Of a stretch of 58,802 bases of DNA, positions 4,626-46,977 are shown piece by piece. The notes beneath the pieces are model-generated. The model was not told where the DNA came from. It made no database searches and saw only the letters and a program-made list of their open reading frames with translations. The translations under genes and the position numbers were made by a program. The DNA comes from Solidesulfovibrio sp. (GTDB lineage Bacteria > Desulfobacterota > Desulfovibrionia > Desulfovibrionales > Desulfovibrionaceae): NCBI RefSeq assembly GCF_029978005.1, contig NZ_JARKOZ010000155.1, forward strand, positions 1 through 58,802, given 5' to 3'. Positions within the stretch are counted from its first letter, which is position 1. Every line of letters begins with the position of its first letter.

Positions 4626-4640
4626 GCAAGAACCGGACCA
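4626..4640 (-). promoter_or_regulatory. Sigma54 -24/-12 promoter for hndABCD
   Basis: Minus strand reads TGGTCCGGTTCTTGC followed by T: GG and GC ten bases apart, with TTGC intact and TGGC weakened to TGGT. The flanked sequence closely matches the moeA-mop promoter at 33416-33430. The predicted start near 4614 gives a leader of about 209 bases. Confidence 0.6.
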
Positions 4641-4827
4641 AGGACATTGTCTCAGGAATATCAGCCTATTGTGAAAAGCGGTGCCAGGCAGGCCGGGGCC
4701 GGAAGGGGCGACAAGGCGTGATCGTGTCCCGGGGCGGCGGTGGCAGTGGTGGAGAAACTTCCAGAAAAGCTTTGATTCCACGATGTTGGCTGCCACAAGA
4801 CAAAGTGCGCTAGCCGTCGGGAAAAAA

Positions 4828-4837
4828 TGGGTCAAAA
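4828..4837 (+). promoter_or_regulatory. Candidate enhancer (TGGGTCAAAA) for hnd
   Basis: Part of a 14-base string (4824-4837) found identically at 33612-33625. Its first base is 188 bases upstream of the -24 element of the hnd promoter, nearly the same distance as at mop and adh. Confidence 0.5.
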
Positions 4838-5053
4838 TGCCACCCTCCCAGACGCCTCTGGGCTTCTGTGGTTGCCGGACTCGCGGGATATGATTTTCAG
4901 GACTACGGTAGCACGTTTTGTTTCCATGCGCATCCCCCCCTCCCCCATGGGCCTGGGGTCTCGCCCGGGTCGGCGGGGGCGGGCAGAGGGGCGTCGCGGT
5001 CCGGGATCGCGGAGGGATGTCCGTATTTTCGGACTATTGGGCCGGGAGCGGAC

Positions 5054-5098
5054 AAGCCCGGCGCGGCGGGGAATAAAAATCGCCGCCGCGCCGGGCTT
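5054..5098 (-). terminator. Hairpin after the heme chemoreceptor gene
   Basis: Perfect 16-base arms (5054-5069 and 5083-5098) around an AT-rich 13-base loop, 59 bases past the stop of the chemoreceptor gene. There is no clear T-run after the stem on the minus strand, so it may stabilise the transcript end instead of terminating it. Confidence 0.55.
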
Positions 5099-5156
5099 TG
5101 GCGAAAAGCGTTCGGGAGCGGCGGCCGCGACCGGCGATGCGGCCCCGGGCCGCCGG

Positions 5157-6941
5157 TCAGGCCAGCATCTCGTCCACCAGGCCCTTGAGGTTGTCGGCCT
5201 CCCGGGACAGGCCGGCCACGGCGGCGTCCGAATCCTCCATGGCCGCGGCCGTGTCGCCCGAGACGCGGCTGATGGACTCCACGGTGCGGCTGATCTCCTC
5301 GCTCACGGCCGACTGCTGCTCGGCGGCGGCGGCGATGGCCTGCACCTGGTCGGCCGAGGCCGTCACCAGGGCCACGATGCCGGAAAGGGCGTCGCCCGAG
5401 CGCCGGGCCAGGGCGTCGGCCCCTTCGATGGCCGTGGCCGCCTGCTCCACGCTTTTGACGTGCTCGCCGGTGCCGTGCTGGATGGCGGTGACGGCCTGCT
5501 CGACCTCCTTGGTGGCGGCCATGGTCTTTTCGGCCAGCTTTCGGACCTCGTCGGCCACCACGGCGAAGCCGCGCCCGGCCTCGCCGGCCCGGGCCGCCTC
5601 GATGGCGGCGTTGAGCGCCAGCAGGTTGGTCTGGTCCGCGATGTCGGAAATCACGCCGATGACCGCGCCGATGCCCTGGGCCTCGCGGCCGAGCACCGTG
5701 ATGTCCTCGCGAAGCGCCGCCGCCTTCTCGCGGATGGCCCCGATCATGGACACGAGGTCGAGCACGGTCTTCGATCCCTCGTCGGCCTTGGCCCGGGCCT
5801 CGGCGGCGGTGGTGGCGGCTTCGCCGGCGTTCTTGGCCACTTCCATGACCACGCTGTTCATTTCGCCGATGGCCAGGGACGTCTCGGCGGCCGAGGCCCG
5901 CTGGGCCTGCGCTCCCTCCCTGGCCTCGCCGACCTTGCCGGTGAGCGCCTCGCAGGCCCCGCCCAGGCGGATGATGACGCCCTCGAGGGTGCGGGCGGCG
6001 GCGGCCGCGCCTTCGCGCCGGGCGGCCACGGCCGCCTCCCGGGCCGTTTCGGCCTCGGCCAGGCAGGTTCCGGCCCGGGCGGCCTCGTCCGCCGCCTCGC
6101 GGGTCTTCTGGTCGGCCTCGATGATCTTCTGCTTGAGGTTGTCCACGAGCGTGCACAGGGCGTCGGCCAGGGAGGTGATCTCGTCGGTGCGTCCGCCGAG
6201 GATGCGCTTGTCCACGCGTTCGTGGATCTCCAGGCAGGCGTCCATGTCGCCCGTGGCGATGCGCTGGCTGTGGCTGGCCAGGAAGGCCAGCCGGTCGATG
6301 ATGGTGCGCTTCATGAAAAGCCACAGCGCCGCCACCAGGGCCAGCAGGCCGCCCAGGGAGAGCAGGGCGGTCTTGGTCTGGGCCGCGGACAGGGCGGCCA
6401 TTTCCGGCGAGACGTCCTCCACGGTGACCAGGGCCCCGAGCACGGGGCGGCTGGCCCCGTGGCAGTGGTGGCAGTCCGGGGCGTTCTTCACGGCCCGCAC
6501 CGTGACGAAGGCGGGCCTCTCCCCGGCGTGCAGCAGGGCAGCGCCGTCGAGCCCCTTGGCCAGAGCCCCGTCGAGCAGGGCGGCCACGTCCGGTTCGGGC
6601 AGGCTGTGGGACAGGGGGCGGCGCAGGGCGTCGGCACGGGTGGCGTAGGTGGTCTCGCCGCGGAAATCGGTGAGAAAGGCGTTGGACCTGCCGCCGGCCT
6701 CGGCGATCCGGGTGAACTGGGCCGTGGTGCCTTGGCTGTCGCCGAGGAGCATGGGTTCGCTGACCACGAGCTGGATGAGGTCGGCCGTGCGCCTGGAGGC
6801 GGCCTGGATCTGGGCCAGGGCGTTGTGGCGCTGCCACAGGGCGCTCGCCGTGAACAGTCCGGCCAGGACGGCGGCGGCCACCAGGCACACCAGGATCAGG
6901 GCCTTGGAACCGAGGGAGAGGGAACCGAAGCTTCTGCGCAT
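5157..6941 (-). CDS. Methyl-accepting chemotaxis protein with a periplasmic heme-c motif
   Basis: 594 residues. Transmembrane segment 1 spans about 14-36, a periplasmic domain about 37-190, transmembrane segment 2 about 191-211, then a HAMP-like linker and the cytoplasmic signalling hairpin with the conserved tip ([19 protein letters not shown]). The periplasmic domain contains CHHCH at 157-161, a covalent heme-c attachment motif. This suggests a redox, O2 or NO sensor like D. vulgaris DcrA or the Geobacter heme-PAS chemoreceptors. There is no C-terminal CheR-tether pentapeptide. It lies 75 bases downstream of a tetraheme cytochrome gene on the same strand, so sensor and cytochrome may be co-expressed. 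Confidence 0.93.
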
Positions 6942-7016
6942 GGGAAACCTCCCGGGCGCGGCCGTGGCGGCGCGCCTGGCGTCGCGGTGCGGATGCGGAA
7001 CCTGGCGGCGCGCCGC

Positions 7017-7881: not shown

Positions 7882-9210
7882 TCACATGATGTCGTACTCC
7901 CTGATCTTGCGGTAGAGCGTCTTGCGGGAGATGCCGAGCGCCGTGGCGGCCAGGGTGCGGTTGTTGCCGAAGCAGGCCAGAACCTTGGCGATGTGCTCGC
8001 GCTCCACGGCCTCGAGCGACAGGAAGTCGCTTTCGCCCTCGACCTGCACGGAGAGTTCCCGGGGCAGGGCGTTCTCGGTGATGACCCCGCCCTCGGCCAG
8101 GATGACCCCGCGCTCGATGACGTTTCTCAGCTCGCGGATGTTGCCCGGCCACTGGTAGTTGATGAGGCACCCCATGGCCCGGTCGGACACGCGGTAGGTG
8201 CCGGCGGCCTGCACCCGGCCGAGGAAGTATTCCACCAGGAGCGGGATGTCCTCCTTGCGCTCGCGCAGCGGCGGCAGCTCGATGTTGAAGACGTTGATGC
8301 GGTGGTAGAGCGCCTCGTGGAAGCGGCCGGCCTCCACCTCCTTGGCCAGGTTGCGGTTGGTGGCGAAGACCAGGCGGATGTCGGTGGTGCGCTCGTCCTT
8401 GTCGCCCACGCGCCGGTAGGTCTTGTTCTCCAGGGTGCGCAAAAGCGAGGCCTGCACCTCCATGGGGAGCTCGCCGATCTCGTCGAGGAACAGCGTCCCC
8501 TTGTTGGCGAAGGTCATGAGGCCCTCGCGGTTTTCCGTGGCCCCGGTGAACGAGCCCTTGACGTAGCCGAAGAGCTCGGAGCGGGCCAACTCCTTCTGGA
8601 GCGTGGCGCAGTTTTTGATGACGTAGGGCTTGTCCGCCCGCCTGGACCGGGCCTGGATGGCCGTGGCCGCGACCTCCTTGCCGGCCCCGGACTCGCCGGT
8701 GATGAGCACGGGCACGTCGGTGGGCGCGACCTTCTCGATCAGGAAGCGAATCTGTTTGATGGCGGCGGAGTTGCCCACGATCTGCTGGGGCTGGTCGCGG
8801 GTCTGGGCGTGCCGCAGCTGGCGGTTTTCGAAGCGCAGGCAGGCCCGCTGGTAGGCCCGCTCCACGATGAGTTCCAGCTCCTCCAGGTTGAAGGGCTTGG
8901 TGATGTAGTCGTAGGCTCCGAGCTTCATGGCCTCCACGGCCGAGTCGATGTTGCCGTGGCCGGTGATGATGATGACCTCCACGTCCGGGGAGTGCTGGCG
9001 GATCTCCACCAGCAGGTCCAGGCCGTCGGCGTCGGGCAGGCGCAGGTCCAGGACCGCCACCTCGTAGGCGTTGCGGCGCAGCATCTCCCGGGCCTGGTGG
9101 GCGGTTTCCGCCGTGGCCACGGCGCGGGCCGGGGAGGAGAGCTCCTTTTTGAGCAGTTTGCCGATGGAGGGCTCGTCGTCGACGACAAGGACGCTGTAGG
9201 GGCTCGTCAT
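7882..9210 (-). CDS. Sigma54-dependent response regulator (NtrC class), system 1
   Basis: 442 residues: receiver domain (1-120; LVVDDEPS, LDLRLPDADG, TKPF), AAA+ sigma54-activator domain (Walker A GESGAGKE, Walker B LFLDEIGE) and a C-terminal Fis-type helix-turn-helix (RTLAATALGISRKTLYRKI). The sigma54-contact loop reads GSFTGA instead of GAFTGA. ATG at 9210 overlaps the kinase stop by four bases (ATGA), so the two are translationally coupled. It should activate a sigma54 promoter in response to kinase 1. As I recall, D. vulgaris has a matching set (DVU2394-2396: regulator, kinase, Fe-ADH) that regulates the adh/hdr-flx genes. Confidence 0.95.
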   Translation of the reverse strand: MTSPYSVLVVDDEPSIGKLLKKELSSPARAVATAETAHQAREMLRRNAYEVAVLDLRLPDADGLDLLVEIRQHSPDVEVIIITGHGNIDSAVEAMKLGAYDYITKPFNLEELELIVERAYQRACLRFENRQLRHAQTRDQPQQIVGNSAAIKQIRFLIEKVAPTDVPVLITGESGAGKEVAATAIQARSRRADKPYVIKNCATLQKELARSELFGYVKGSFTGATENREGLMTFANKGTLFLDEIGELPMEVQASLLRTLENKTYRRVGDKDERTTDIRLVFATNRNLAKEVEAGRFHEALYHRINVFNIELPPLRERKEDIPLLVEYFLGRVQAAGTYRVSDRAMGCLINYQWPGNIRELRNVIERGVILAEGGVITENALPRELSVQVEGESDFLSLEAVEREHIAKVLACFGNNRTLAATALGISRKTLYRKIREYDIM

Positions 9211-10418
9211 GGGAGTTTTTCCGGGTTTAAGGGAAATTTCACGGTGAAGGTCGCGCCCTGGCCTGGTTCGCTTTGCACCGCGATCTCCCCTTGGTGCTTG
9301 GCCACGATGGACATGCAGGTGGAGAGGCCAATGCCGATGCCCTTGCCGGCCCGCTTGGTGGTGAAAAACGGCTCGAAGAGCTTGTCCAGGTGCTCGGGCT
9401 TCACGCCGCAGCCGGAGTCGGCCACGGACAGGCACACCGCCCCGGAGGAGGACTGGAAGGTGGTGATGACGATGCGGCCCGGCCCGGCGATGGCGTCCAT
9501 GGCGTTGACGAGGAGGTTGAGCATGACCTGCTTGATCTGGTGTTCGTCGCCGGAGACCGGGGGCAGGTCTTCGCTGAGTTCCGTGCGCACGGTGATCTTG
9601 GCCTGGCTGCGCTGCTTGAGGTGGCTGCGCAGGAGCTTGAGGGTGTCCTCGACCACGGCGTTTAGGCTCACCGGCGAAAAGCTCACGGTCTTGTGGCGGC
9701 TGAAGGTGAGCAGGGTGGTGACGATGTCCTGGCAGCGCCGGCATTCCTGGAGGATGGTGCTGACGTAGTCCTCCACGTCGTCCACAACCCGGGGATCGAC
9801 CTTTTCGCGCAGGGCCGGCAGACGGCGGCGCAGGCCCTCGGCGAAGCCGAAGATGGCCGTGAGGGGATTGTTGACCTCGTGGGCCACGCCCGTGGCCAGC
9901 ATGCCGATGGTGGCCATCTTCTCGGCCTGGTAGAACTTGGCCTGGTATTCCTTTTCCCGGGTCACGTCGCGCTTGAACACCAGGATGTGCTGCTCCGGGT
10001 CGTCGGGGTGGTGGATGGGCGAGGCCACCATCTCGTATTGCACGTTCTTGCCGCCGATCTTGAAGATGGCGGTCTCGCGGCAGATGTCGCCCGTGGCCAG
10101 GGACCGGCTGGCCGGGCAGTCCGGGCAGGGCTGGTCCTGACCCCGGAAGAGCTGGTGGCAGAACTTCCCTTCCGGGGCCGGGTCGGGGAAGGTCTGGCGG
10201 AAGACGTGGTTGACCGAGAGGATGCGCAGCTCCGGCGAGAGCACCATCATGATGTCGGTGATGCCGTCGAGGATGGCGGCGATCTCGCGGCGGCGCTGGG
10301 AGGACTGGGCGTTGGCGTCTTTGAGGGCTTCGATGGTCTGGCGCAGCTCCTGGAAAAAGCCGAGCTTGCTGTGTTCGATGCCGATGAGGTCCTCGAGGGA
10401 CGGCGCCCGCCAGGGCAT
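9207..10418 (-). CDS. PAS-domain sensor histidine kinase with a four-Cys motif, system 1
   Basis: 403 residues, no transmembrane segment, so a soluble cytoplasmic sensor. An N-terminal coiled coil after SLEDLIGIEHSKLGF is followed by a PAS domain (about 60-190) with a C-x10-C-x2-C-x11-C motif, then the His-phosphorylation helix (GVAHEVNNPLTAI) and a HATPase_c domain (NAMDAI, DSGCG, GKGIGIGL). The Cys set could bind a metal or Fe-S cluster or sense thiol redox state (inference). Its start overlaps the ADH stop by one base (TGATG) behind AGGAGG. Paralogous to the kinase at 35230-36666. Confidence 0.94.
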   Translation of the reverse strand: MPWRAPSLEDLIGIEHSKLGFFQELRQTIEALKDANAQSSQRRREIAAILDGITDIMMVLSPELRILSVNHVFRQTFPDPAPEGKFCHQLFRGQDQPCPDCPASRSLATGDICRETAIFKIGGKNVQYEMVASPIHHPDDPEQHILVFKRDVTREKEYQAKFYQAEKMATIGMLATGVAHEVNNPLTAIFGFAEGLRRRLPALREKVDPRVVDDVEDYVSTILQECRRCQDIVTTLLTFSRHKTVSFSPVSLNAVVEDTLKLLRSHLKQRSQAKITVRTELSEDLPPVSGDEHQIKQVMLNLLVNAMDAIAGPGRIVITTFQSSSGAVCLSVADSGCGVKPEHLDKLFEPFFTTKRAGKGIGIGLSTCMSIVAKHQGEIAVQSEPGQGATFTVKFPLNPEKLP

Positions 10419-11560
10419 CACCAGGCCTCCTGGCACACGCCGAGCAGGGATTCCCATGTGGCGGGCCTGGGATTGGTCAGGGTGCAGGCGTCGTTGACCG
10501 CCGCTTTGGCGATGGTCTCCAGGCAGCTGCGGTCGGGCAGGATGTCGCGCAGGCGCACGGGCACGCCGAGGTCGGCGAAGAAGCGCTCCAGCCAGCTGAT
10601 GCCGGCCTGGGCGATGTACTGGGAGGAGCACATGCGCGGGCCGCAGACGATGCGCCCGATGGCCGCCAGCTTGTCCACGCTGGCCGGCAGGTTGAAGCGC
10701 ATGACGTGGGGCAGGAGGATCGGGTGGACCAGGCCGTGGAGCACGTCGAACATGCCGCCCAGCGAATGGGCCAGGGAATGCCCGACGCCCAGGCCCGCGT
10801 TGGAGAAGGACATGCCGGCCGAGGTCGCGGCGATGCTCAGGTTCTCCAGGGCCTCGATGGAGCGGTCCTCCAGGGCCGGCCGGAGGTTCTGGGAGATCAG
10901 CCGCATGGCCTTGAGGGCCTGGTGCTCGGTGAACGGCGAGGAAAGCAGCGAAAGGTAGGACTCCACGGCGTGGGCGAAGGCGTCGATGCCCGAGGAGATG
11001 ATGAGCTTCTCGCTTTTGGTCAGGAGCACCAGGGGATCGATGATGGAGATGTTGGGCACCAGCGACCGGCTGATGATGGACATCTTGAGCTGGCGCTCCA
11101 CGTCGGTGATGATGCAGAACTGGGAGATGTCCGAGCCCGAGCCGGCCGTGGTGGGCAGAAAGATCATGGGGGGCAGGGGGCGCATGATGCGGTTGGCCCC
11201 TTCGTAGTCGCTGATGCGGCCGCCGTTGCCGACGATGGTGGCGATGCCCTTGGCCGCGTCCATGGGGCTGCCGCCGCCCACGGCGATGAGGACGTCGGCG
11301 CGTTCGCGCACGTAGATTTCCGCGCCCTCGTGGACCTGATAGTCGCGGGGGTTGGAATTGACGGCGTCGTAGTAGATCCACTCCAGGCCGTTGTCGCGCA
11401 GGATCTCCATGATGCGGTCGACCCAGCCGGCCGCGACCAGGCCCTGGTCGCTGACGAGCAGCACCCGCCGTCCGCCCAGGCGCTTGGCGCAGGAGGCCAG
11501 ATGGACGATGCTGCCGCGTCCGAAGATGATCTCGGGGATGGCGAACTTGCTGATCCGCAT
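10418..11560 (-). CDS. Iron-containing (group III) alcohol dehydrogenase, regulator-linked
   Basis: 380 residues. NAD-binding GGGSPMD motif near residue 96 and metal ligands in SSGIDAFAHAVESY (D, H) and GHSLAHSLGGMFDVLHG (two H), the standard Fe-ADH set. It should interconvert a primary alcohol and aldehyde with NAD(H); the substrate is not readable from sequence. First gene of an ADH-kinase-regulator trio with overlapping stops and starts. That arrangement suggests it belongs to alcohol sensing or is itself controlled by the pair. It is distinct from the second Fe-ADH at 45491-46672. Confidence 0.92.
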   Translation of the reverse strand: MRISKFAIPEIIFGRGSIVHLASCAKRLGGRRVLLVSDQGLVAAGWVDRIMEILRDNGLEWIYYDAVNSNPRDYQVHEGAEIYVRERADVLIAVGGGSPMDAAKGIATIVGNGGRISDYEGANRIMRPLPPMIFLPTTAGSGSDISQFCIITDVERQLKMSIISRSLVPNISIIDPLVLLTKSEKLIISSGIDAFAHAVESYLSLLSSPFTEHQALKAMRLISQNLRPALEDRSIEALENLSIAATSAGMSFSNAGLGVGHSLAHSLGGMFDVLHGLVHPILLPHVMRFNLPASVDKLAAIGRIVCGPRMCSSQYIAQAGISWLERFFADLGVPVRLRDILPDRSCLETIAKAAVNDACTLTNPRPATWESLLGVCQEAW

Positions 11561-11975: not shown

Positions 11976-11978
11976 AAC
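11961..11978. promoter_or_regulatory. Operator-like palindrome over the XRE gene start
   Basis: GTTATGAA-AC-TTCACAAC, symmetric except for one base pair, covering the GTG start codon. This position fits translational or transcriptional autorepression. Confidence 0.5.
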
Positions 11979-12751: not shown

Positions 12752-12923
12752 CGGCGAGGATGCATCGGCGACAAGCGTCATCGTTGGCTGGGTATGGATG
12801 CGTCGGCGGTTATTACTGAACGACCCTTCATGTCCTTGGGGGAGCGGAGCGCTTGCAGGTCAGGCGGAACGTTGGCCGCCTGTGTAGTGTAGTGTCTGCA
12901 ACGCTGGAATGTGGAGGAGTCGT

Positions 12924-20754: not shown

Positions 20755-20817
20755 CATCAAGGGGGTCCGGGGGGAATTATTCCCCCCGGCGAGGTCCAGG
20801 GGCGGCGCCCCTGGCCT
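20755..20817. repeat. GC-rich intergenic repeat, copy 3, containing a gene's stop codon
   Basis: Same module as copy 1 (CATCA, CCGGGGGG/CCCCCCGG hairpin, GGTCCAGG plus second hairpin). The upstream nucleotidyltransferase-HD frame runs through it and terminates at the TAA in the hairpin loop (20777-20779). Confidence 0.65.
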
Positions 20818-25435: not shown

Positions 25436-25436
25436 G

Positions 25437-26569: not shown

Positions 26570-26784
26570 TACTTGTCCTCCAGCAGCTGCTCCACTTCCA
26601 GCATTTTGCCCATGGCGACGTACTCGGGCAAAAGCGCCATGTTGCACCTGGGGCAGGTGAGCACCTGGATGGTGAAGCCGCCTTCGAGATAAGTGACCGA
26701 GGCGTCCCGAGGCTCCAGGGGATCCCCGCAGGAGCAGCAGATCCAGTCGCCGGATTGGGGCAGATAAACCAGTGATTCAGCCAT
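26569..26784 (-). CDS. Small two-CxxC redox or zinc-ribbon protein (DVU_1557-type)
   Basis: 71 residues with CCSC near residue 17 and CPRC near residue 45. The spacing matches a small zinc ribbon or rubredoxin-like fold. No membrane segment is present. It is encoded directly before the methyltransferase and 42 bases after the FAD/Fe-S protein. It could be an electron carrier for the radical SAM or FAD protein, or a metal chaperone; sequence alone does not decide. Confidence 0.85.
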   Translation of the reverse strand: MAESLVYLPQSGDWICCSCGDPLEPRDASVTYLEGGFTIQVLTCPRCNMALLPEYVAMGKMLEVEQLLEDK

Positions 26785-26826
26785 CGGTGTGTCTCCGTGC
26801 CTCCGGTCGCCGGAGGCCTCTTCCTC

Positions 26827-31963: not shown

Positions 31964-32100
31964 GCTTTTCTCCGTGCTCTGGTTAGAGGATTACCGTTTT
32001 CGCCGACGCGGGACGCGGTTTCGGGTCGTGGCCCAGCGCGCCTCCTGCAATCGCCCTCGCGCGGATGTACCTCAGACAACGGCCATCGGCCGCGGTACGC

Positions 32101-33415: not shown

Positions 33416-33430
33416 GCAAGAAGCAGGCCA
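33416..33430 (-). promoter_or_regulatory. Sigma54 -24/-12 promoter for moeA-mop
   Basis: Minus strand reads TTGGCCTGCTTCTTGCT: TGGC and TTGC seven bases apart, the consensus layout. Start predicted near 33404, giving a leader of about 280 bases before the MoeA-like gene. Confidence 0.7.
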
Positions 33431-33590: not shown

Positions 33591-33625
33591 TTTTGATCCA
33601 CCGGGGCCTGGAAAATGGGTCAAAA
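33591..33625 (+). promoter_or_regulatory. Candidate enhancer pair for moeA-mop
   Basis: TTTTGATCCA (33591-33600) and TGGGTCAAAA (33616-33625) form an inverted pair with one mismatch and a 15-base spacer. The second element starts 186 bases upstream of the -24 box. Confidence 0.55.
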
Positions 33626-36666: not shown

Positions 36667-36679
36667 GCGCGCGCCGCGG

Positions 36680-38238: not shown

Positions 38239-39075
38239 TTACAGTTCGTTGGGCAGGGCCTTGAGCTGGGCGTAGGTGTACACCGGGCCGTCCACGCAGA
38301 CGTAGCTCGAGCCGATGTTGCAGCGCCCGCAGATGCCGATGCCGCACTTCATGCGTTTTTCCAGCGTGGTCACGATCTGGTCGTCCTCGAAGCCGAGCTT
38401 CTTGAGGGCCTCCAGGGTGAACTTGATCATGATGGGCGGGCCGCAGGTCACGGCCACGGTGTTCTCGGGCTTGGGCGCGAGCTCCAGCAGCACGTTGGGA
38501 ATGAGGCCCACCTTGTGCGCCCAGCCGTCGGCCTCGCGGTCGATCGTGAGCGTGGTGTTCACGTCGGCTCGCGAGGTCCACTCCGGCAACTCGGCCGAGA
38601 AGGCCATGTCCGCCGGGGAGCGCGCGCCGTAGAGCAGCGTGATGTCGCCGTAGTCGGCCCGGTTGTCGAGCATGTAGAGGAACAGCGTGCGCAGCGGGGC
38701 CATGCCGATGCCGCCGCCGACGAACACGATGTTCTTGCCCTTCATGGCCTCGTACGGGAAGCAGTTGCCGAGCGGGGCGCGCACGCCCACCTTGTCCCCG
38801 GCGTTCAGGCCGTGGAGCATGGTGGTCACCTCGCCGGCCCGCATGACCGAGAACTGGAGGTAGTCCATGCGGGTGGGGGGCGAATTGATGACGAAGGTGG
38901 ATTCGCCGATGCCCGGGGCGGACAGCTGGCCGACCTGGCCGGGCTCGAACTTGAAGGCGGCCATCTTGGCCTCGTCGTCGAAGCGCACCCGGAAGGTCTT
39001 GATGTTGTGGGTCTCCTGGACCGTCTCCAGGATGGTGGCCACTTCCGGCAGATAGGGATTGAACGGATCGGTCAT
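38239..39075 (-). CDS. flxA: FlxA, FAD/NAD(P)H-binding subunit of Flx-Hdr
   Basis: 278 residues, ferredoxin-NADP-reductase fold like dihydroorotate dehydrogenase electron-transfer subunits. FAD domain near residues 10-100, NAD-binding GGGIGMAPLR near residue 140, and a C-terminal [2Fe-2S] site CGIGICGRCNIGSSYVC. It oxidises NADH (or reduces NAD) for the complex. Last gene of hdrCBA-flxDCBA, 15 bases after flxB. In D. vulgaris the complex is proposed to bifurcate NADH electrons to ferredoxin and DsrC (family knowledge). Confidence 0.94.
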   Translation of the reverse strand: MTDPFNPYLPEVATILETVQETHNIKTFRVRFDDEAKMAAFKFEPGQVGQLSAPGIGESTFVINSPPTRMDYLQFSVMRAGEVTTMLHGLNAGDKVGVRAPLGNCFPYEAMKGKNIVFVGGGIGMAPLRTLFLYMLDNRADYGDITLLYGARSPADMAFSAELPEWTSRADVNTTLTIDREADGWAHKVGLIPNVLLELAPKPENTVAVTCGPPIMIKFTLEALKKLGFEDDQIVTTLEKRMKCGIGICGRCNIGSSYVCVDGPVYTYAQLKALPNEL

Positions 39076-39090
39076 GGTCTTAACACCCCT

Positions 39091-40146
39091 CTAGCCCTTG
39101 GCCCTGGCCACGGCGTTTTGCACGATCTCGCGGATGTCCACCGAGACCGGACAGCTCTTGATGCACCGGCCGCAGCCGCAGCAGGCGACGAGCCCGTCAT
39201 GCAGGGTGGGATAATAGCTGAACTTGTGGCCCACGCGGTTTTTGAGGCGATGGGCCTTGGTCGGCCGGGGGTTGTGGCCCGAGGCCTCCAGGGTGAACTG
39301 GAAGTGCATGCAGGCGTCCCAGGAACGCATGCGCCGGCCGGACATCCCTTTGGGCTCGTCGGTGATGGTGAAGCAGTAGCAGGTCGGGCACAGGTAGGTG
39401 CAGGCCCCGCAGCTGACGCACTTGTCCGACTGGTCGCGCCAGAAGTCCGCGTCGTCGAAGGCGGCCAAAAGCGCCGCCGGAGAGGCGGCGATGTCCGGGG
39501 CCTCGCCCAGGACCTCCCGGGCGGCGGCCTTGACCGCGGCGGCTTCGTCGGCCTTGGCCGCGCCGTCGGCCAGCGCCGGGTCCTCGAGCAGGGCCGCGCC
39601 CTTGTCCGTGACGGCCTCGGCCGTGTAGCCGCCGGCCACGGGGGTCAGCAGCACGTCCGAGCCCGAGCCGTCCGCCGGGCCGGAGCCGACCCAGTGGCAG
39701 AAGCAGGTGTTTTCCACGTTGGCCGCGGCGCAGGCCATGGTCACGAAGACCGTGGCCTCGCGGGCGGCGATGTAATACGGGTCCGGGAACTTCTTGCCGA
39801 TGTAGACGCGGTCGAAGATGAGGAATCCCCGCGCCCCGCAGGGCTTGGCCCCGAAGACCACGGTGGGCTCGGCTTCGGTCGAGGCAATGAGCTTGAGGGT
39901 GGGCTTGCCGGGATCTTCCGGGTCCTTGCCCTGCTCGTAGCGGAACAGTTCCTGGCAGGCCGGGAAGACGGCGCCCTTGGGCGGGGCGGTGGCGTCGCTG
40001 TCGAAGACGGGCCGGCAGCCCGGCGCATAGGGCCGGAACACCACGCCGCCGCCTTCCGCGACGGGAACGAGCACCCGGCTCTTGGCGGCCAGGGACTTGA
40101 GCCAATCGGGGAGCTTGTCGCTCGCGATATATTTGACAGCGGCCAT
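39091..40146 (-). CDS. flxB: FlxB, Fe-S electron-transfer subunit
   Basis: 351 residues, related to anaerobic sulfite reductase A / 4Fe-4S dehydrogenases. C-terminal ferredoxin sites CVSCGACTYLCPTCYC and CCGCGRCIKSCPV; N-terminal region rich in acidic and alanine residues (about 150-250) with no named domain. Start overlaps the flxC stop by one base. It passes electrons between FlxA and the rest of the complex. Confidence 0.92.
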   Translation of the reverse strand: MAAVKYIASDKLPDWLKSLAAKSRVLVPVAEGGGVVFRPYAPGCRPVFDSDATAPPKGAVFPACQELFRYEQGKDPEDPGKPTLKLIASTEAEPTVVFGAKPCGARGFLIFDRVYIGKKFPDPYYIAAREATVFVTMACAAANVENTCFCHWVGSGPADGSGSDVLLTPVAGGYTAEAVTDKGAALLEDPALADGAAKADEAAAVKAAAREVLGEAPDIAASPAALLAAFDDADFWRDQSDKCVSCGACTYLCPTCYCFTITDEPKGMSGRRMRSWDACMHFQFTLEASGHNPRPTKAHRLKNRVGHKFSYYPTLHDGLVACCGCGRCIKSCPVSVDIREIVQNAVARAKG

Positions 40147-41117
40147 TACCAGCTACGCTCCTTGATGTTGTCTTCCTCGAGCTTGAACTGCAGCAAGGGC
40201 GGGATCGCCTGCGGGTCCACGCCGGCCTGGTAGTCGAACAGGTCGCGGATGGTGCGGTTCAGGTGCTTTTTGAGGGCCAGCACCGGGATGTCCATGGGGC
40301 AGGCCCGCTGGCACTCGCCGCACTCCGTGCAGCGTCCGGCCAGGTGCAGGGCGTGGACGACCTGGAACATGAGCTTTTCCGTGGCCGTGTCGTCCTGGGT
40401 CAGCCAGTGGGGCTCGCGGCTCTGGGCGATGCAGTGGTCGCGGCACACGCACATGGGGCAGGCGTTGCGGCAGGCGTAGCAGCGGATGCAGCGCTCCATG
40501 TGGTAGCGCCAGAAGGCCATGCGCTCGGGCACGCTCATGGCGTCGAGCGCGGCCAGGTCGGCGTCCGCGGCCGCGGCCGGGGCGGCCGGGGCGATGGGGT
40601 CGCCCACGTAGGCGTCGGCCAGCACCGCGTTGGGGAACTGGCAGCGGCCGCACTTGTCGGCCCGGACCTCGGCCAGGGGCATGGCGGTCGTCTGGCCGCC
40701 GGCGGTGACGGAGACCGTCTTGCCGTCGTCGGTCACGGCCGTGACCGTGCCGGCGGAGACGCCGGCACCGGCGAGTCTGGCCTTGACCTTGGACAGGTCG
40801 ATCACGCCCGTACACGGCATGCCGAAGATGACGACGTTGTCGCGGTTGATGAGGTTTTCCTGGAGCAGCTCGACCACCGAGCGGGAGTCGCAGCCCTTGA
40901 CCACCACGCCGACCTTCTTGCCCGTGAAGGTGGGCAGGTACACGGCGGGGTTGTGGACGTTGAGCGGGCCCCATTCGAGCTTGTCCACGTCGGCGTCCGT
41001 GCGCATGAAAAGCGGCGTGTTGTGGAGGGGGTCGTAGCCCTTCTGCCAGCCGATGACGCATTCAAGGCCCGGCAGGGCCTCCTTGATGCGGGTTTTGAGC
41101 TCCTCAAGCCGCGACAC
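40146..41117 (-). CDS. flxC: FlxC, Fe-S subunit (FrhB/FdhB-like)
   Basis: 323 residues from GTG 41117, overlapping flxD by 14 bases. N-terminal half resembles F420-hydrogenase beta / formate dehydrogenase beta proteins (KGCDSRSVVELLQENL, GMPCTGVIDL). C-terminal half has ferredoxin motifs CIRCYACRNACPMCVC and CTECGECQRACPMDIP. An extra CGRC near residue 150 may hold another cluster. It probably exchanges electrons with ferredoxin or FlxD. Confidence 0.92.
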   Translation of the reverse strand: MSRLEELKTRIKEALPGLECVIGWQKGYDPLHNTPLFMRTDADVDKLEWGPLNVHNPAVYLPTFTGKKVGVVVKGCDSRSVVELLQENLINRDNVVIFGMPCTGVIDLSKVKARLAGAGVSAGTVTAVTDDGKTVSVTAGGQTTAMPLAEVRADKCGRCQFPNAVLADAYVGDPIAPAAPAAAADADLAALDAMSVPERMAFWRYHMERCIRCYACRNACPMCVCRDHCIAQSREPHWLTQDDTATEKLMFQVVHALHLAGRCTECGECQRACPMDIPVLALKKHLNRTIRDLFDYQAGVDPQAIPPLLQFKLEEDNIKERSW

Positions 41118-41595
41118 GGTTGCCTCCTTGGCCGAGCGCCCCGGCCGCCGCCTTGGCCAGCATGTCCGCGGAAACGGCGTCGAAACGCGGCGCGGGGCCC
41201 AGGGCGTGAATCTGTTCGGTGAACACCGTCACCACCTTCTGCCAGCGCTGGCCTTCCGAGGCCGAGACCCAGGTGTAGTCGAACCGGCCCGGGTCGATGC
41301 CGAGGATGGGCAGGAAGCGCTTGAGCACTTCCAGGCGACGCCGGGCGTAGAAGTTGCCTTCGGCGTAGTGGCAGTCGCGGGGATGGCAGCCGGAGACGAG
41401 CACGCCGTCGGCCCCATTGATGAGCGTCTTGGCGATAAAGAGCGGATCGATGCGCCCGGAGCACGGGACGCGGATGATGCGCAGGTCCGTGGGTTGGCCG
41501 AAACGCCCGACGCCTGCCGTGTCCGCGCCGCCGTAGGAGCACCAGTTGCACAGAAATCCGACGATACGCAGTTCCTTGCCGGTCAGGACTGGCAT
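41104..41595 (-). CDS. flxD: FlxD, MvhD-family [2Fe-2S] linker subunit
   Basis: 163 residues, MvhD family: CNWCSYGGADTAG near residue 15, VPCSGRIDP, and VSGCHPRDCHYAEGN near residue 70. In methanogens MvhD passes electrons from hydrogenase to HdrA; here it should connect FlxABC to HdrA. ATG 41595 lies 13 bases inside the end of hdrA, so translation is coupled. Confidence 0.95.
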   Translation of the reverse strand: MPVLTGKELRIVGFLCNWCSYGGADTAGVGRFGQPTDLRIIRVPCSGRIDPLFIAKTLINGADGVLVSGCHPRDCHYAEGNFYARRRLEVLKRFLPILGIDPGRFDYTWVSASEGQRWQKVVTVFTEQIHALGPAPRFDAVSADMLAKAAAGALGQGGNRVAA

Positions 41596-43541
41596 AAGGC
41601 GTTGACCTCCGCGAGGATTTGGTTGTCCGTGAAGTGGGACAGCTGGATGGCGCCCTGGGGACAGGTCGAGGTGCAAAGGCCGCAGCCCTGGCAGACCGTC
41701 TCGATGACCTCGGCCTTCTTCTGGCCCCGGAACTCCACTTCCTTGATGGCCTTGAACGGGCAGGTGATGATGCACTTGCCGCAGCCGACGCACCGCTTGA
41801 TGTCCACGCGGGAGATCTGCGGGTCGCTTTCCAGCATGTCCTTGGAGAACAGCGCCAGCACCTTGGCGGCGGCGGCGCTGCCCTGGCCCACGGACTGGGG
41901 AATGTCCTTGGGGCCCTGGCAGGAGCCGGCCAGGTAGACGCCGGCGGTGTTGGTCTCCACGGGCTTGAGCTTGGGATGGCTCTCCATGAAGAAGCCGTAC
42001 TTGTCGTAGGAGATGCGCAGCTTCTCGGCGAGCTTGGGCGCGCCCACGGCCGCTTCCGCGCCGGCGGCCAGGACCACCAGGTCGGCTTCGACCTCGACCT
42101 GGGTGCCGGCCAGGGTGTCCGCGCCGCGCACGATCATCTTGCCGTCCTTGGGGTAGACCATGGCCACGCGGCCGCGGATGTAGCGCGCCCCGTACTCCTC
42201 CATGGCCCGGCGGGTGAACTCGTCGTACATTTTGCCGGGCGAGCGGATGTCCATGTAGAAGACGTAGGACTGGGAATCCGGGATGTGGTCCTTGGTCAGG
42301 ATGGCCTGCTTGGCCGTGTACATGCAGCAGAAGCCCGAGCAGTACGGCCGGTCCAGGGACTTGTCGCGCGAGCCCACGCACTGGATGAAGACGACGTTTT
42401 TCGGCTCCTTGCCGTCGGAGGGCCGTTTGATGTGCCCGCCCGTGGGGCCGGAGGCCGAGAGCAGGCGCTCGTACTGCAGGCCGGTGATGACGTCGGGGTA
42501 GCGCCCGCCGCCGTATTCCGTCACCTTGCTGATGTCGAAGAGGTCGTAGCCCGTGGCGGCGACGATGGCCCCCACGTCCTCGGTCACGATCTCGTCGGCC
42601 ATGTCGTACTTGATAGCCCCGGTGGGGCAGACTTTCGCGCACACGCCGCACTTGCCCTTGACGAACTGGCGGCAGGTGGTCGGGTCGATGACCGCCTTCT
42701 TCGGGATGGCCTGGGGGAAGGGGATGTTGATGGAGGTGCAGGGCCCGATCTTTTCGTTGAACCGGTCAGGGTTCTTCTTGCTCGGGCACTTCTCCATGCA
42801 GGCCCCGCAGCCGGTGCACAGGGTCCAGTCGACGTAGGTGGCCTTTTTCTTGACCTGCACCTGGAAGTTGCCCACGTAGCCGCCGATGGCGTCCACCTCG
42901 GAGTAGGCGTGCAGGGTGATGTTTTCGTGCTGGGCCACGTCCACCATCTTGGGGCCGAGGATGCAGCTCGAGCAGTCGACCGTGGGGAAGGTCTTGTCGA
43001 GCTTGGCCATCTTGCCGCCGATGGAGGATTCGCGCTCCACCAGGACGACCTGGAGGCCGCCGTCGGCGCAGTCGAGCGCCGCCTGGATGCCGGCCACGCC
43101 GCCGCCGATGACCATCACGCGCTTGTTGATGGAGAACTTGCTCGGAGACAGCGGCGCGTCGCGCCGCAGCTTCTCGATGGCGATGCGCACCAGATCCACG
43201 GACTTGTTGGTGTTGGCCTCGCGGTCCTTACCGATCCAGGAGACGTGCTCGCGGATGTTGGCCATCTCGAACATGTAGCGGTTGAGTCCGGCGCGCTCCA
43301 CGGCCCGGCGGAAGGTGGGCTCGTGCATGCGCGGGGTGCAGGAGGCCACCACCACGCCGGTGAGGTTCTTGTCCTTGATGGCCTGGATGATGCCGTCCTG
43401 GCCGGGCTCCGAGCAGGCGTACATGGTGTCCGTGGCGTAGACGACCTCGGGAAAGTCCAGGGACGCCTTGGCCACGGTCGCGGTGTCCACCGTGCCTTCG
43501 ATGTTGCTGCCGCAGTGGCAGATGAAAACGCCGATTCGCAT
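41583..43541 (-). CDS. hdrA: HdrA, flavin-containing heterodisulfide reductase-like subunit
   Basis: 652 residues. N-terminal domain (FICHCGSNIEG, SCTPRMHEPTF), FAD-binding VIGGGVAGIQAALD with VDCSSCILGPKM, and internal ferredoxin motifs (CTGCGACMEKCP, CGVCAKVCP). Two C-terminal [4Fe-4S] sites (CVGCGKCIITCP, CQGCGLCTSTCP). The flavin in HdrA is the bifurcating centre of this enzyme class. Located between hdrB and flxD, as in D. vulgaris. Soluble. Confidence 0.96.
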   Translation of the reverse strand: MRIGVFICHCGSNIEGTVDTATVAKASLDFPEVVYATDTMYACSEPGQDGIIQAIKDKNLTGVVVASCTPRMHEPTFRRAVERAGLNRYMFEMANIREHVSWIGKDREANTNKSVDLVRIAIEKLRRDAPLSPSKFSINKRVMVIGGGVAGIQAALDCADGGLQVVLVERESSIGGKMAKLDKTFPTVDCSSCILGPKMVDVAQHENITLHAYSEVDAIGGYVGNFQVQVKKKATYVDWTLCTGCGACMEKCPSKKNPDRFNEKIGPCTSINIPFPQAIPKKAVIDPTTCRQFVKGKCGVCAKVCPTGAIKYDMADEIVTEDVGAIVAATGYDLFDISKVTEYGGGRYPDVITGLQYERLLSASGPTGGHIKRPSDGKEPKNVVFIQCVGSRDKSLDRPYCSGFCCMYTAKQAILTKDHIPDSQSYVFYMDIRSPGKMYDEFTRRAMEEYGARYIRGRVAMVYPKDGKMIVRGADTLAGTQVEVEADLVVLAAGAEAAVGAPKLAEKLRISYDKYGFFMESHPKLKPVETNTAGVYLAGSCQGPKDIPQSVGQGSAAAAKVLALFSKDMLESDPQISRVDIKRCVGCGKCIITCPFKAIKEVEFRGQKKAEVIETVCQGCGLCTSTCPQGAIQLSHFTDNQILAEVNALCQS

Positions 43542-43544
43542 GGC

Positions 43545-44444
43545 CTACGCTCCCTTCGCCTGTGCGTCCGCGCCCGAGAGGGCCTTGTTCAGTACGGGCC
43601 TCGGGTCGATGCACAACTGTCCGAAACCGAGTTCCTCGTCCGCGACATTGAGGGCCACGCCCATGAGCTGGGTGAAATAGGGCACGGGGATGCGGAAGTT
43701 GGTCCCAAGGGCCCGGTTGACCTGTCCCTGGCGCAGGTCCAGGTTCATCTGGCAAAGCGGGCAGGCCACGGCCACCATGTCCGCGCCGACGGATTTCGCC
43801 ACGTCCAGGAGCTTGCCCGTGAGCCGGGCCACGATGTCCTGGCGCGGGATGCCGTAGGAGGCGCCGCAGCACTCGACCTTGAGCGGGAACGGCACGACGG
43901 TGGCCCCCATGGCGGACAGCACGTTGTCCATGGCCATGGGGTTCTCGCAGTCGTCGAAAGCCATGAGCTCGGGCGGCCGGTTCATGATGCAGCCGTAGTA
44001 GCAGGCGACCTTGAGGCCGGTCAGCGGCGTGCGCACGGCGGCCTTGATCTCGTCGAGGCCGACTTTTTCCACCAGGGCCTGGAGCACGGAGATGGCTTCC
44101 ACGCCGCCGGCGTAGGGGGCGTCGAGGAGCTTGTTGACCTTCTCGGCCATGGCCGGCGCTTCCATCCGGTGGTTGGCCGTGCGCAGGTTGGTCAGGCAGC
44201 TCGGGCAGGGGGTGGCGGCGGAGGCGATGCCCATGCCGGAGACGAGCTGGAGGTTTCTGGCCGACAGGGCGGCGGACAGCACGTGGTCCTTGGTGTGGGC
44301 CGGGGTGGAGCCGCAGCAGCTCCAGTCCGGGATGTCCACCAGGTCGAGCCCCAGCGTCCGGCACACGGCCCGGGTGGAGGCGTCGTATTCCTTGGAGGTG
44401 CCGAGGCCCGAGCAGCCCGGGTAGTAGGCGATGGCTTCGCTCAT
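43545..44444 (-). CDS. hdrB: HdrB, CCG-domain catalytic subunit
   Basis: 299 residues with two Cys-rich CCG domains (CSG ... WSCCGST, and CYYGCIMNR ... CCGASYG). These bind the noncubane clusters that reduce heterodisulfides in methanogens. In sulfate reducers the acceptor is proposed to be DsrC trisulfide or a similar thiol. Start overlaps the hdrC stop by four bases. Confidence 0.95.
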   Translation of the reverse strand: MSEAIAYYPGCSGLGTSKEYDASTRAVCRTLGLDLVDIPDWSCCGSTPAHTKDHVLSAALSARNLQLVSGMGIASAATPCPSCLTNLRTANHRMEAPAMAEKVNKLLDAPYAGGVEAISVLQALVEKVGLDEIKAAVRTPLTGLKVACYYGCIMNRPPELMAFDDCENPMAMDNVLSAMGATVVPFPLKVECCGASYGIPRQDIVARLTGKLLDVAKSVGADMVAVACPLCQMNLDLRQGQVNRALGTNFRIPVPYFTQLMGVALNVADEELGFGQLCIDPRPVLNKALSGADAQAKGA

Positions 44445-45001
44445 GAATTGGACTCCCTCTCGAAACGCTCGAAGATGCGGGCCACGTGCTCCTTGCCCGC
44501 GATCTCGTGGGGCTTCAGGGAGAGCTTGCCCTTGGGGAAGATCTTGGGTCCGAGGTCAAGGTCGGTCCAGAAGCGGCCGGTGCGCATGACGTAGTTGACG
44601 GTGAGCCCGAGCTCGAACACGCGGCCGTGGGCCTTGACCGAGTCCAGAAAGCTGTCCCAGAACGTCTTGACCTGCGGCACGGCGGCCAGTCCCTCGCGCC
44701 GGGCCATGTGGCGCAGCACGTCCATGACGCAGGCCACGTCGATCTGGTTGGGGCAGCGGGTCGTGCAGGACTCGCACGTGGCGCACAGCCAGATGGACTT
44801 GGAAGACAGCACGGTCTTCTTCTGTCCTGCCTGGACCAGGCGCATGATCTGGCTGACGGGGATGTCGTAGGCGAAGGTGTACGGGCAGCCGGCCGTGCAG
44901 TTCCCGCACTGGTAGCACAGGCTGACGTTCTGCCCGGACTCTTCCTCCACCCTGTGAACGAAATCGCCGTCGTAGTCGCGGGTGAGATTGATGGTCTGCA
45001 T
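44441..45001 (-). CDS. hdrC: HdrC, 2[4Fe-4S] subunit
   Basis: 186 residues. Two ferredoxin motifs, CYQCGNCTAGCPY and CATCESCTTRCP, in the typical HdrC arrangement, followed by a helical C-terminal part. It links HdrA and HdrB. First gene of the hdrCBA-flxDCBA operon, preceded by a 489-base region. Confidence 0.95.
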   Translation of the reverse strand: MQTINLTRDYDGDFVHRVEEESGQNVSLCYQCGNCTAGCPYTFAYDIPVSQIMRLVQAGQKKTVLSSKSIWLCATCESCTTRCPNQIDVACVMDVLRHMARREGLAAVPQVKTFWDSFLDSVKAHGRVFELGLTVNYVMRTGRFWTDLDLGPKIFPKGKLSLKPHEIAGKEHVARIFERFERESNS

Positions 45002-45490
45002 ACGATCCTATCCGGTTGACGTGAAAGAAACGGGTCTATCTCAAGCGGTTCGCCCTGACGCCCGAGGGCAGGAGAAACGACAACCGCGGTCCGAGGTGGA
45101 TAGCATGGCGGTCATTGCTTGACCACCCCGGACCGGGTGTCGCACCTGGAGGATGATTTTTCAAAAATTTTACAGAAATTCTTATTATTTCACTGTATTG
45201 ATCGAAAACTGCTTTGTAACGAACCGGAACAATTGTGTAAAAAAGTCTCCCGGCCAGGACGCGTTTCTGGTCTGTCCGGGGCTTGGGGCGGCGGGAAAAC
45301 GCGTCCGACCTCCCCGATGGCCGTCCCGTCGGCGCGCCCCTGACGGGACTTGGCGCGCGGCCGCAAGATCCCTCCGGGTCCGGGACGTCTGCCACCGTCT
45401 CGGCCGGAGAGCCGCCCCCCTGGCGGCGGGCGGCGGCCGGATGCTCGAAGGGGGGCCCGGAGGCCCCCCTTGACGCGTCAGTCGTCCTTC
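45002..45490. other. Intergenic region between hdrC and adh
   Basis: 489 bases without a gene. An AT-rich core (about 45150-45250) is likely the hdr-flx promoter region, but no sigma54 layout and no strong -35/-10 pair is seen. A GC hairpin near the adh end (45448-45471) is listed separately. Confidence 0.55.
45448..45471 (-). terminator. GC hairpin downstream of adh
   Basis: AAGGGGGGCC and GGCCCCCCTT around CGGA, 20 bases past the adh stop on the minus strand. No T-run follows, so it may reduce read-through into hdr-flx or protect the adh message. Confidence 0.5.
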
Positions 45491-46672
45491 CTACAGGGCG
45501 GACGTGTAAATGGCAGCCACGTCCTTGTCGGTCGGGCAGCGGGGGTTGGTCAGACCGCAGGCGTCCTTCTGGGCGTTGCCGGTCATGGTCGGGATGTCGG
45601 TAGCCTTGACTTCCTTGCCATAGCGCTTGCCGAGCTCGACGAGGCCGGACGGAATGCCGATGTCGGAAGACAGCTTGCGGATGGCCTTGAGCGCCAGTTC
45701 GGCGGCGTCGCGCGGGGCCAGGCCGGCGATGTTCTCGCCGAACAGTTCGGCCATGCGGGCGAACTTCTCGACCTTGGCGATCAGGTTGAAGCTCTCGACA
45801 TGGGGCAGCAGGATGGCGTTGCACTCACCGTGCGGCAGGTCATAGAAGCCGCCCAGCTGGTGGGCCATGGCGTGCACGTGACCGAGGCTGGCGTTGTTGA
45901 AGGCCATGCCGGCCAGGTACTCGGCGAAGCACATGCCTTCGCGGGCTTCCATGTCCTGACCGTTGGCCACGGCCTTGCGCAGGTACTTGAAGATCAGCCG
46001 GAAGGCTTCCTCGGCGCAGGCGTCGGTCATCGGGTTGGCGATGGTGGACACGAAGGCCTCGACGGCGTGGGTCAGGGCGTCCATGCCGGTGGCGGCGGTC
46101 AGCGCCGGGGGCATGCCGACCATGAGGACCGGGTCGTTGATGGCGATGTGCGGGGTGACGCGCCAGTCGACGATGGCCATCTTCACGTGGCGGGACAGGT
46201 CGGTGATGATGCAGAAGCGGGTCATTTCCGAGGCGGTGCCGGCCGTGGTGTTGACGGCCAGGTAGGGCATGAAGGACTTGGAGGACTTGTCCACGCCTTC
46301 GTAGTCATGGATCTTGCCGCCGTTGGACACGACGAGGCCGATGCCCTTGCCGCAGTCGTGGGAAGAACCGCCGCCCAGGGTGATGAGGCTGTCGCAACCC
46401 TCTTTCTTATAGACGTCGACGCCCTTGTGGACGTTCGCGTCGGTGGGGTTGGGGATAGTCTCGTCATAGACGTGGTACTTCATGCCGGCGGCGTCGAGGA
46501 GGTCGGTGATCTGTTTGCAGATGCCGACTTTCACCACGCCCTTGTCGGTGACGATCAGCGGCTTGGAGCCGCCCAGGGCCTTGATCTTCTCGGGGATGGC
46601 CTTGGCGGCGCCGATGCCGATGAGGGTCACGCTGGGAATGAAGAAACCGTAGACTTGCTCGCGAACTGCCAT
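45491..46672 (-). CDS. adh: Iron-containing alcohol dehydrogenase (DVU2405-type)
   Basis: 393 residues. Fe-ADH motifs: GGGSSHDCGKGI near residue 97, metal ligands in TGMDALTHAVEAF and HVHAMAHQLGGFYDLPHGE. In D. vulgaris the equivalent gene sits next to hdr-flx, is very highly expressed and oxidises ethanol with NAD. ATG 46672 chosen because it follows GTGAGG and matches the family start (MAVREQVYGFF). A sigma54-type promoter lies 84-110 bases upstream. Compared with the other Fe-ADH in this window, codon choice here looks more uniform, consistent with high expression (visual impression). Confidence 0.96.
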   Translation of the reverse strand: MAVREQVYGFFIPSVTLIGIGAAKAIPEKIKALGGSKPLIVTDKGVVKVGICKQITDLLDAAGMKYHVYDETIPNPTDANVHKGVDVYKKEGCDSLITLGGGSSHDCGKGIGLVVSNGGKIHDYEGVDKSSKSFMPYLAVNTTAGTASEMTRFCIITDLSRHVKMAIVDWRVTPHIAINDPVLMVGMPPALTAATGMDALTHAVEAFVSTIANPMTDACAEEAFRLIFKYLRKAVANGQDMEAREGMCFAEYLAGMAFNNASLGHVHAMAHQLGGFYDLPHGECNAILLPHVESFNLIAKVEKFARMAELFGENIAGLAPRDAAELALKAIRKLSSDIGIPSGLVELGKRYGKEVKATDIPTMTGNAQKDACGLTNPRCPTDKDVAAIYTSAL

Positions 46673-46767
46673 GGTGCCAACCTCACTTGGGTTAAGGTTA
46701 TGGTTTTGCGAACGGACCCCAAACCTGATTTCCTTGCGGCTTTTGGGTAAACGCTTCTCCCTGTGAA

Positions 46768-46782
46768 GCAATTCCCGGGCCA
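46768..46782 (-). promoter_or_regulatory. Sigma54 -24/-12 promoter for adh
   Basis: Minus strand reads CTGGCCCGGGAATTGCTT: TGGC and TTGC seven bases apart. Start predicted near 46756, leader about 84 bases. Confidence 0.75.
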
Positions 46783-46867
46783 GTTTCTGCAGTAAGTTAT
46801 TTCAATGTGTTGCGATCACGCCTGGATGGCCGGCGGGGCAGTCTGGCCGCGCCGCCCCGGGCCGGGG

Positions 46868-46884
46868 GTGTCCCATAGGGACAC
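46868..46884. promoter_or_regulatory. GTGTCCC-N3-GGGACAC palindrome upstream of adh
   Basis: Perfect 7-base arms around ATA, 86-102 bases upstream of the -24 box, within the normal range for a sigma54 enhancer site. Confidence 0.55.
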
Positions 46885-46898
46885 AGCCGCGAACGCGG

Positions 46899-46977
46899 TG
46901 GGTAAAAAACGGCCAATTCAGGGGGTTGGAGCAGGGTGGACAAGTTGCCCCACGCTTGTGCTTCGATTGGGTAAAAA
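46899..46977 (+). promoter_or_regulatory. Two TGGGTAAAAA elements upstream of adh
   Basis: Copies at 46899-46908 and 46968-46977, 69 bases apart. The distal copy starts 186 bases upstream of the -24 box, matching the mop and hnd arrangement. Confidence 0.5.

Follow-up and report, generated by a model that had tools for sequence, protein, structure and literature searches.

A conserved upstream element paired with sigma54 promoters points to a probable regulon for ethanol and aldehyde oxidation in Solidesulfovibrio

The stretch of Solidesulfovibrio sp. DNA analyzed here (contig NZ_JARKOZ010000155.1, 58,802 nucleotides, referred to below as the window) carries three operons on the minus strand, encoding the hydrogenase Hnd (hnd), the molybdopterin aldehyde oxidoreductase Mop (moeA-mop) and an alcohol dehydrogenase with hdr/flox-type genes (adh). 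Each is preceded by a sigma54-type promoter. The original prediction, made from the sequence alone, had assigned them to one regulon, and this was supported by comparison across the scans of the window's own genome and of the genus. The preferred reading, held with good confidence, is a sigma54 regulon for ethanol and aldehyde oxidation, which would be driven by an enhancer-binding protein of the DVU2394 type (EBP1), and perhaps also by its paralogue EBP2, through a shared upstream element (UAS). New relative to the original prediction are the members aor and aldehyde dehydrogenase, the repeat structure of the element, its second copy at adh, the link to DVU2394 and the Rex site at hnd.

The three -24/-12 boxes that had been reported for hnd, moeA-mop and adh were recovered with exact letters and positions on the minus strand (Table 1), and they show GG at -24 and GC at -12 with ten bases between, as sigma54 promoters do. 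The sigma54 consensus in Desulfovibrio is of the tGGcacg/tTGCt type (PMC4641369). On the promoter strand the upstream element reads TTTTKACCCA, and the window contains four exact copies, all upstream of these three promoters. Re-measurement of the distances to the first -24 base gave 188, 186 and 186 bases for hnd, mop and adh, as claimed, and the 14 bases said to be identical between the hnd and mop copies correspond to the common stretch TTTTGACCCATTTT. Neither part is rare enough in itself. In the window TGGY-N7-TTGC has 12 occurrences where 4.87 are expected (12 were reached in one of 100 shuffles); the decamer, with up to one mismatch allowed, has nine on the two strands, where 2.27 are expected. 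What is decisive is not the box by itself but the element and box at a fixed distance.

The window's own genome was scanned with this pair pattern (TTTTKACCCA, 170-200 bases, TGG-N8-TTGC), using the reversed pattern as a control. The decamer as a sole criterion was rejected as too weak genome-wide, since it occurred at 17 places against 11 in the reversed control. The pair occurred at five places and its control at none. Three of these were the hnd, mop and adh promoters of the window. The fourth (C12:17436) lies before a gene for aldehyde:ferredoxin oxidoreductase (aor; Pfam AFOR_N and AFOR_C), a member of a family that uses tungsten, and the fifth (C176:23770) before an aldehyde dehydrogenase gene, for which the nearest NCBIfam model was acetaldehyde dehydrogenase ExaC, below its cut-off. 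Both new members are aldehyde-oxidising enzymes, as the regulon idea would lead one to expect. When the 17 decamers were checked for up to 400 bases downstream, TGG-N8-TTGC was present only at gaps of 185-187, besides the second copy at adh; when C or T was allowed at two positions of the box, three other decamers gained matches, at gaps of 145-314.

The same pattern and reversed control were applied to 14 genomes of the genus, including the window's own. Matches were found in 14/14 genomes at 56 places, with none in the control, and the first downstream gene, identified by comparison with reference proteins, encoded HndA (14), AOR (14), Adh (13), MoeA (13), aldehyde dehydrogenase (1) or a DUF6976 protein (1). 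These counts, like those of the single genome, agree with the view that a conserved motif at a conserved distance is hard to explain by chance. The regulon proposal had been made to depend on whether orthologous promoters keep the motif at its distance; they do, in that 54 of the 56 matches precede hnd, aor, adh or mop. Of the 56 slots formed by four operons in 14 genomes, 54 contained the exact pair, one had a single mismatch (the mop promoter of G005, TTTTGACTCA, with the mismatch in the element and a gap of 185) and one was without the pair. At the hnd position TGG-N8-TTGC was present in all 14 genomes.

The gap was 180-190 bases in all 56 matches and 183-190 in 54 of them, although 170-200 was permitted. 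The chance of such clustering is about 1e-29 if gaps are uniform over the 31 allowed values, a figure that treats orthologous promoters as independent, which they are not. The within-class identity of 1.00 for the decamer, GG and GC follows by construction from the selection by pattern and has no evidential weight. An orthologue (at least 89% identical) of the aldehyde dehydrogenase was found in two of the 14 genomes, both times with the element, the copy in G005 having one mismatch. For the 77% identical paralogues in G005 and G012, no element-box pair was detected in the upstream stretch examined.

Evidence that was not selected by the pattern came from a set of named adh loci. From 80 loci retrieved with HdrA, 19 matched Adh, and 17 of these were close homologues with complete upstream regions (three from the genus). 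TGG-N8-TTGC was present in 17/17; 16 of these boxes lie 82-110 bases before the ATG and one, L064, at 228. In S. alcoholivorans (L023) the box occupies the same place as the adh box of the window.

Alignment of the promoter classes showed a unit TGnnnCnTTTTKACCCA (TGnnnCnTTTTGaCCCa) followed downstream by a looser second unit. The best offset of this second unit was 32 in 12/13 adh and 13/14 hnd promoters and 31 in 11/14 aor promoters, and in hnd it was identical in 14/14 promoters although it lies outside the search pattern. The case for two units rests on the constant offset together with this conservation of the second unit in hnd and adh. The decamer thus appears to be part of a longer repeat whose two units are separated by about 31-32 bp (three helical turns), a spacing that would suit a pair of activator dimers. 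The genus matrix was also applied to the 14 adh upstream regions from outside the genus. In 12 of them the highest score fell 165-209 bases before the box (the reference point of L064 being set by hand, as its box lies so far from the ATG), and eight had two of their best three scores 31-32 bp apart. Base shuffles reached the top score in 0-5%. A direct-repeat site together with a sigma54 promoter, the arrangement of the DVU2394 type, was therefore present upstream of adh. A further unit (e.g. TGGGTCATTTTGTCCC) was seen 63-72 bases before -24 in adh upstream regions of other genera (L035, L037, L040, L043, L044, L046 and L091). An inverted-repeat UAS was also considered; it agrees with the window's mop site and with a few matches outside the genus but not with hnd, and it was rejected in favour of the 31-32 bp repeat, which fits more classes.

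Sites for IHF with at most one mismatch were found between UAS and promoter in 6/14 aor, 9/13 adh, 7/14 hnd and 2/13 mop promoters, compared with 3-11% in base shuffles. As these rows are related, the involvement of IHF is only suggested.

Two sigma54 activators had been noted in the window, and both were found, EBP1 and EBP2, each with the GSFTGA loop. EBP1 and its kinase lie between adh-hdr-flox and mop; EBP2 and its kinase lie about 3 kb from the hnd element. EBP1 was detected in 14/14 genomes of the genus, although G007 and G011 have only incomplete copies. EBP2 was detected in 12/14, not being found in G007 (490 contigs) or G011 (69% complete). The recognition helices LGICRKTLYRKI and LGISRKTLYRKI were present in those EBP1 and EBP2 copies that are complete at that end. 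In a midpoint-rooted tree of 38 rows, EBP1 grouped (support 96/88) with the regulators encoded beside adh in Desulfovibrio sp. A2 and Rs511, and EBP2 branched just outside this group (99/97). Judged by synteny, the GSFTGA loop and the tree, EBP1 is likely the orthologue of D. vulgaris DVU2394. A third, more distant EBP paralogue (55-56% identity, helix LGIGRKTLYRKM) was observed in G012 and G002 (L206 and L207).

The PAS stretch of both kinases contains C(Y/H)xLF, then PCPxCPA and then a further cysteine, a pattern which suggests a redox or metal-cluster sensor. In the mechanism proposed here, the PAS kinases would phosphorylate EBP1 and probably EBP2. The phosphorylated EBP1, and probably EBP2, would bind the UAS, acting as a shared enhancer whose first unit ends about 180-190 bases before the -24 box, and would loop to the sigma54 RNA polymerase. 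The genes for alcohol dehydrogenase and Hdr-Flox, Mop and AOR, Hnd and, where present, aldehyde dehydrogenase would then be turned on. The clusters for conversion of ethanol to acetate and hydrogen would probably be switched on together, either by a single regulator or by two related ones with some division of labour.

How the work is shared between the two activators bears on the strongest alternative, namely that the regulon is real and EBP1 alone reads the UAS, EBP2 having another target or a modulating role. This is a tentative possibility. It would account for the position of EBP1 between two target operons and its grouping with adh-locus regulators, and mop and adh bear the UAS in other genera too. 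It sits less well with what is seen of EBP2: its gene is close to hnd in the window, in G003, G006 and G008 it lies no more than about 3 kb from aor, and the protein has the sequence LGISRKTLYRK in common with the Desulfovibrio sp. A2 regulator.

The Rex operator has the consensus TTGTGA-N6-TCACAA. A perfect copy was found in 14/14 hnd leaders, 99-100 bases past the first -24 base, whereas for aor, adh and mop no Rex match with 0-1 mismatch was detected (the best had two) in stretches that began at most 100 bases ahead of the element and ended 250 past the box. It is unlikely that hnd is governed mainly by Rex, with sigma54 a minor part. The perfect operator in all 14 hnd leaders and the published proposal of Rex control (PMC10084766) speak for this, but the pair is present at hnd in all 14 genomes with an invariant second unit. 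The Rex site lies about 75-95 bases beyond the expected start, where it would be suited to repression on top of activation.

These features could, somewhat speculatively, be read as a redox switch that acts on the ethanol-acetate-H2 pathway as a whole and combines two paralogous Cys-PAS systems, one three-turn enhancer, a Rex roadblock past the sigma54 start of hnd and feedback by Hnd. Published work on S. fructosivorans showed that Hnd is essential on ethanol and that deletion of hndD drastically lowered the expression of adh and aor (Kpebe 2023, PMC10084766). If such a switch operates, the activity of the hydrogenase would itself influence the redox state that is sensed. Removal of Hnd would then silence adh and aor, and the effect of the hndD deletion would thereby be explained.

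An even less probable alternative is that the UAS is read by a different, unlinked regulator and that the EBPs nearby have other targets. The own-genome aor has, ending just upstream of it, a further sigma54 response regulator whose helix-turn-helix (HTH) is different (L018, 1-1272), and among the targets of D. vulgaris PhoB (DVU1083) is an alcohol dehydrogenase gene (PMC3333781). The L018 protein was rejected as the aor regulator, since it was found upstream of aor in only 1/14 genomes (0.6-1.5 kb examined), and conservation throughout the genus is seen for EBP1, EBP2 and the UAS. That the promoters resemble each other by chance, or by descent from a duplicated segment with no common control, is already disfavoured and most improbable: hnd and mop do have 14 bases in common and the promoters of the 14 genomes are not mutually independent, yet the exact pair was kept in 54 of the 56 slots while spacers within a class were only 47-54% identical, the control scans were empty, and the scan recovered genes of one pathway.

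The preferred reading, a regulon driven by EBP1 and perhaps EBP2, resembles a known system. The adh-hdr operon is a target of DVU2394 in D. vulgaris Hildenborough, where the site is a direct repeat and binding of the activator to its targets has been published (Rajeev 2011, PMC3333781), and DVU2394 was described with a GSFTGA loop and the target DVU2405-2399 (Kazakov 2015, PMC4641369). In the available accounts that system and the present genus are alike in having a GSFTGA response regulator beside adh-hdr-flox, a sigma54 promoter and a direct-repeat site. They differ in that the UAS of the present genus also precedes hnd, moeA-mop, aor and an aldehyde dehydrogenase gene, and in that a second paralogous system is present. 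The likeness to the DVU2394 site is one of repeat layout. In the adh upstream region of Desulfovibrio sp. A2, GTAGCATTTCGACTCA and CCCATTCTGTCCC are similar to the units of the genus. The present system is an extension of a known activator type and not a new kind of system. The Hnd/Adh/Aor pathway of S. fructosivorans is likewise similar, with the same genes and a Rex site predicted at hnd; its account differs in that sigma54 appears, in the text available, only in a reference title (PMC10084766).

Several observations weigh against the proposed regulon or its two-unit enhancer. In G008 (89% complete) the sole adh gene found, 83% identical, has the box but lacks the UAS. In the window's own genome a second moeA-like gene (L217, G000:C200:11022-12038) has a box identical to TGGCCTGCTTCTTGC without the upstream element, so that possession of the box is not enough to define the regulon. 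The second unit of mop has a mixed best offset, mostly 22 (7/13, against 32 in 3/13), and the second-unit score is weak on its own, its median being reached by 15% of control windows. D. magneticus is now a Solidesulfovibrio. The validated DVU2394 motif was found beyond Hildenborough only in D. vulgaris Miyazaki, although D. magneticus was among the genomes screened (PMC3333781). In S. fructosivorans, ethanol does not induce hnd or adh, and adh and aor respond differently on ethanol, from which different regulators were suggested (PMC10084766). These differences might be due to the existence of two activators, to Rex at hnd or to other inputs, but a real tension remains.

The control of adh by DVU2394 has thus been published, while its extension to hnd, aor and mop was not found in the literature search. 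That search, which covered titles and the openings of abstracts and few subscription journals, revealed among the matches listed no shared sigma54 regulon of hnd, adh, aor and mop. The regulatory mechanism of these genes in S. fructosivorans (hnd, adh and aor) was described as still to be elucidated (PMC10084766). The physiology of Hnd, Adh and Aor is known from mutants; to this are now added a cis element that is conserved, candidates for the activators, and further genes predicted to belong to the regulon. It is suggested that an activator whose main known target in D. vulgaris is a single metabolic operon acts here on a whole pathway, including an electron-bifurcating hydrogenase. With a conserved element and candidate activators, the question of regulation becomes directly testable.

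Table 1. Positions of promoter features, regulators and operon genes in the window.
Feature	Position	Strand	Remarks
hnd sigma54 -24/-12 box TGGTCCGGTTCTTGC	4626-4640	minus	read from sequence
hnd upstream element TTTTGACCCA, first repeat unit	4828-4837	minus	read 4837 to 4828
hnd second unit CTAGCGCACTTTGTCTT	4796-4813	minus	32 bp downstream of first unit
Rex-type operator TTGTGATATTTTTCACAA	4523-4540	minus	hnd leader, 100 bp past first -24 base
moeA-mop sigma54 -24/-12 box TGGCCTGCTTCTTGC	33416-33430	minus	
moeA-mop upstream element TTTTGACCCA	33616-33625	minus	read 33625 to 33616
Inverted arm TGGATCAAAA	33591-33600	minus	downstream of mop element
adh sigma54 -24/-12 box TGGCCCGGGAATTGC	46768-46782	minus	110 bases before ATG
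adh upstream element TTTTTACCCA, first unit	46968-46977	minus	second unit TGGGGCAACTTGTCC 32 bp on
Extra adh copy TTTTTACCCA	46899-46908	minus	117 bases before adh box
EBP1, sigma54 response regulator	33906-35237	minus	receiver, AAA+ with GSFTGA, Fis HTH
Kinase paired with EBP1	35230-36666	minus	PAS domain with several cysteines
EBP2, EBP1 paralogue	7882-9210	minus	69% identical, near-identical recognition helix
Kinase paired with EBP2	9207-10400 (start approximate)	minus	same PAS cysteine pattern
hndABCD	198-4405	minus	[FeFe] hydrogenase group A6
HndA	3890-4405	minus	
HndB	3475-3855	minus	without strong family match of its own
HndC	1975-3450	minus	
HndD	198-2045	minus	
moeA-mop	29213-33123	minus	moeA-like gene 32101-33123
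Mop, molybdopterin aldehyde oxidoreductase	29213-31963	minus	
adh and hdr/flox-type genes	38239-46672	minus	adh 45491-46672
HdrA-like	41583-43541	minus	
HdrB-like	43545-44444	minus	

The gene names Flox/Flx used here follow the usage in PMC10084766. Following mop on the minus strand (20777-29127) are MobA-like, XdhC-like, AMP-binding, radical-SAM and Fe-S open reading frames (ORFs), which are likely to assemble the cofactor of the aldehyde oxidoreductase and to transfer electrons for it.

The gene for the EBP2 kinase is directly preceded by an iron-type alcohol dehydrogenase gene (10418-11560, minus strand), for which the best NCBIfam model was regulatory protein ErcA, below its cut-off, and whose product may be a sensor-like component. 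In Pseudomonas, the ErcS/ErbR-ErcA two-component systems and an ErcA-like iron alcohol dehydrogenase are tied to ethanol metabolism; they differ in having other regulators and PQQ enzymes, and the likeness is by label only. Genes for chemotaxis receptors (5157-6941, minus, and 12909-14708, plus) flank the EBP2 system, one of them between EBP2 and hnd, possibly for alcohol or redox taxis.

Among 274 further genomes of the family, 25 had a pair match (26 places), compared with seven places in the control. Six of these places precede MoeA-Mop, six Adh and one a DUF6976 protein; for the remaining 13 the reference proteins gave no match, and these places may be due to chance. In L154 (G001:C109, gap 183) and L133 (G148:C23, gap 195), the pair precedes a small protein and a DUF6976 protein (assigned by Pfam on the first 90 residues), and the two DUF6976 proteins, from different genera, are 73% identical to each other.

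A relaxed scan of the genus (any base at position 5, CGG or CTGC, gap 175-195) gave 71 places compared with 56, with six in the control, and none of the 15 extra places was counted in the regulon. Three of the extra places, L208-L210 (G004, G009 and G013), form one class, with a CGG -24 box at a gap of 183-184 before ORFs that are, by eye, AmiS/UreI-like and porin-like; no Pfam family matched in the L208 stretch, which does not correspond exactly to those ORFs. This class is possibly a further member of the regulon or the target of another activator.

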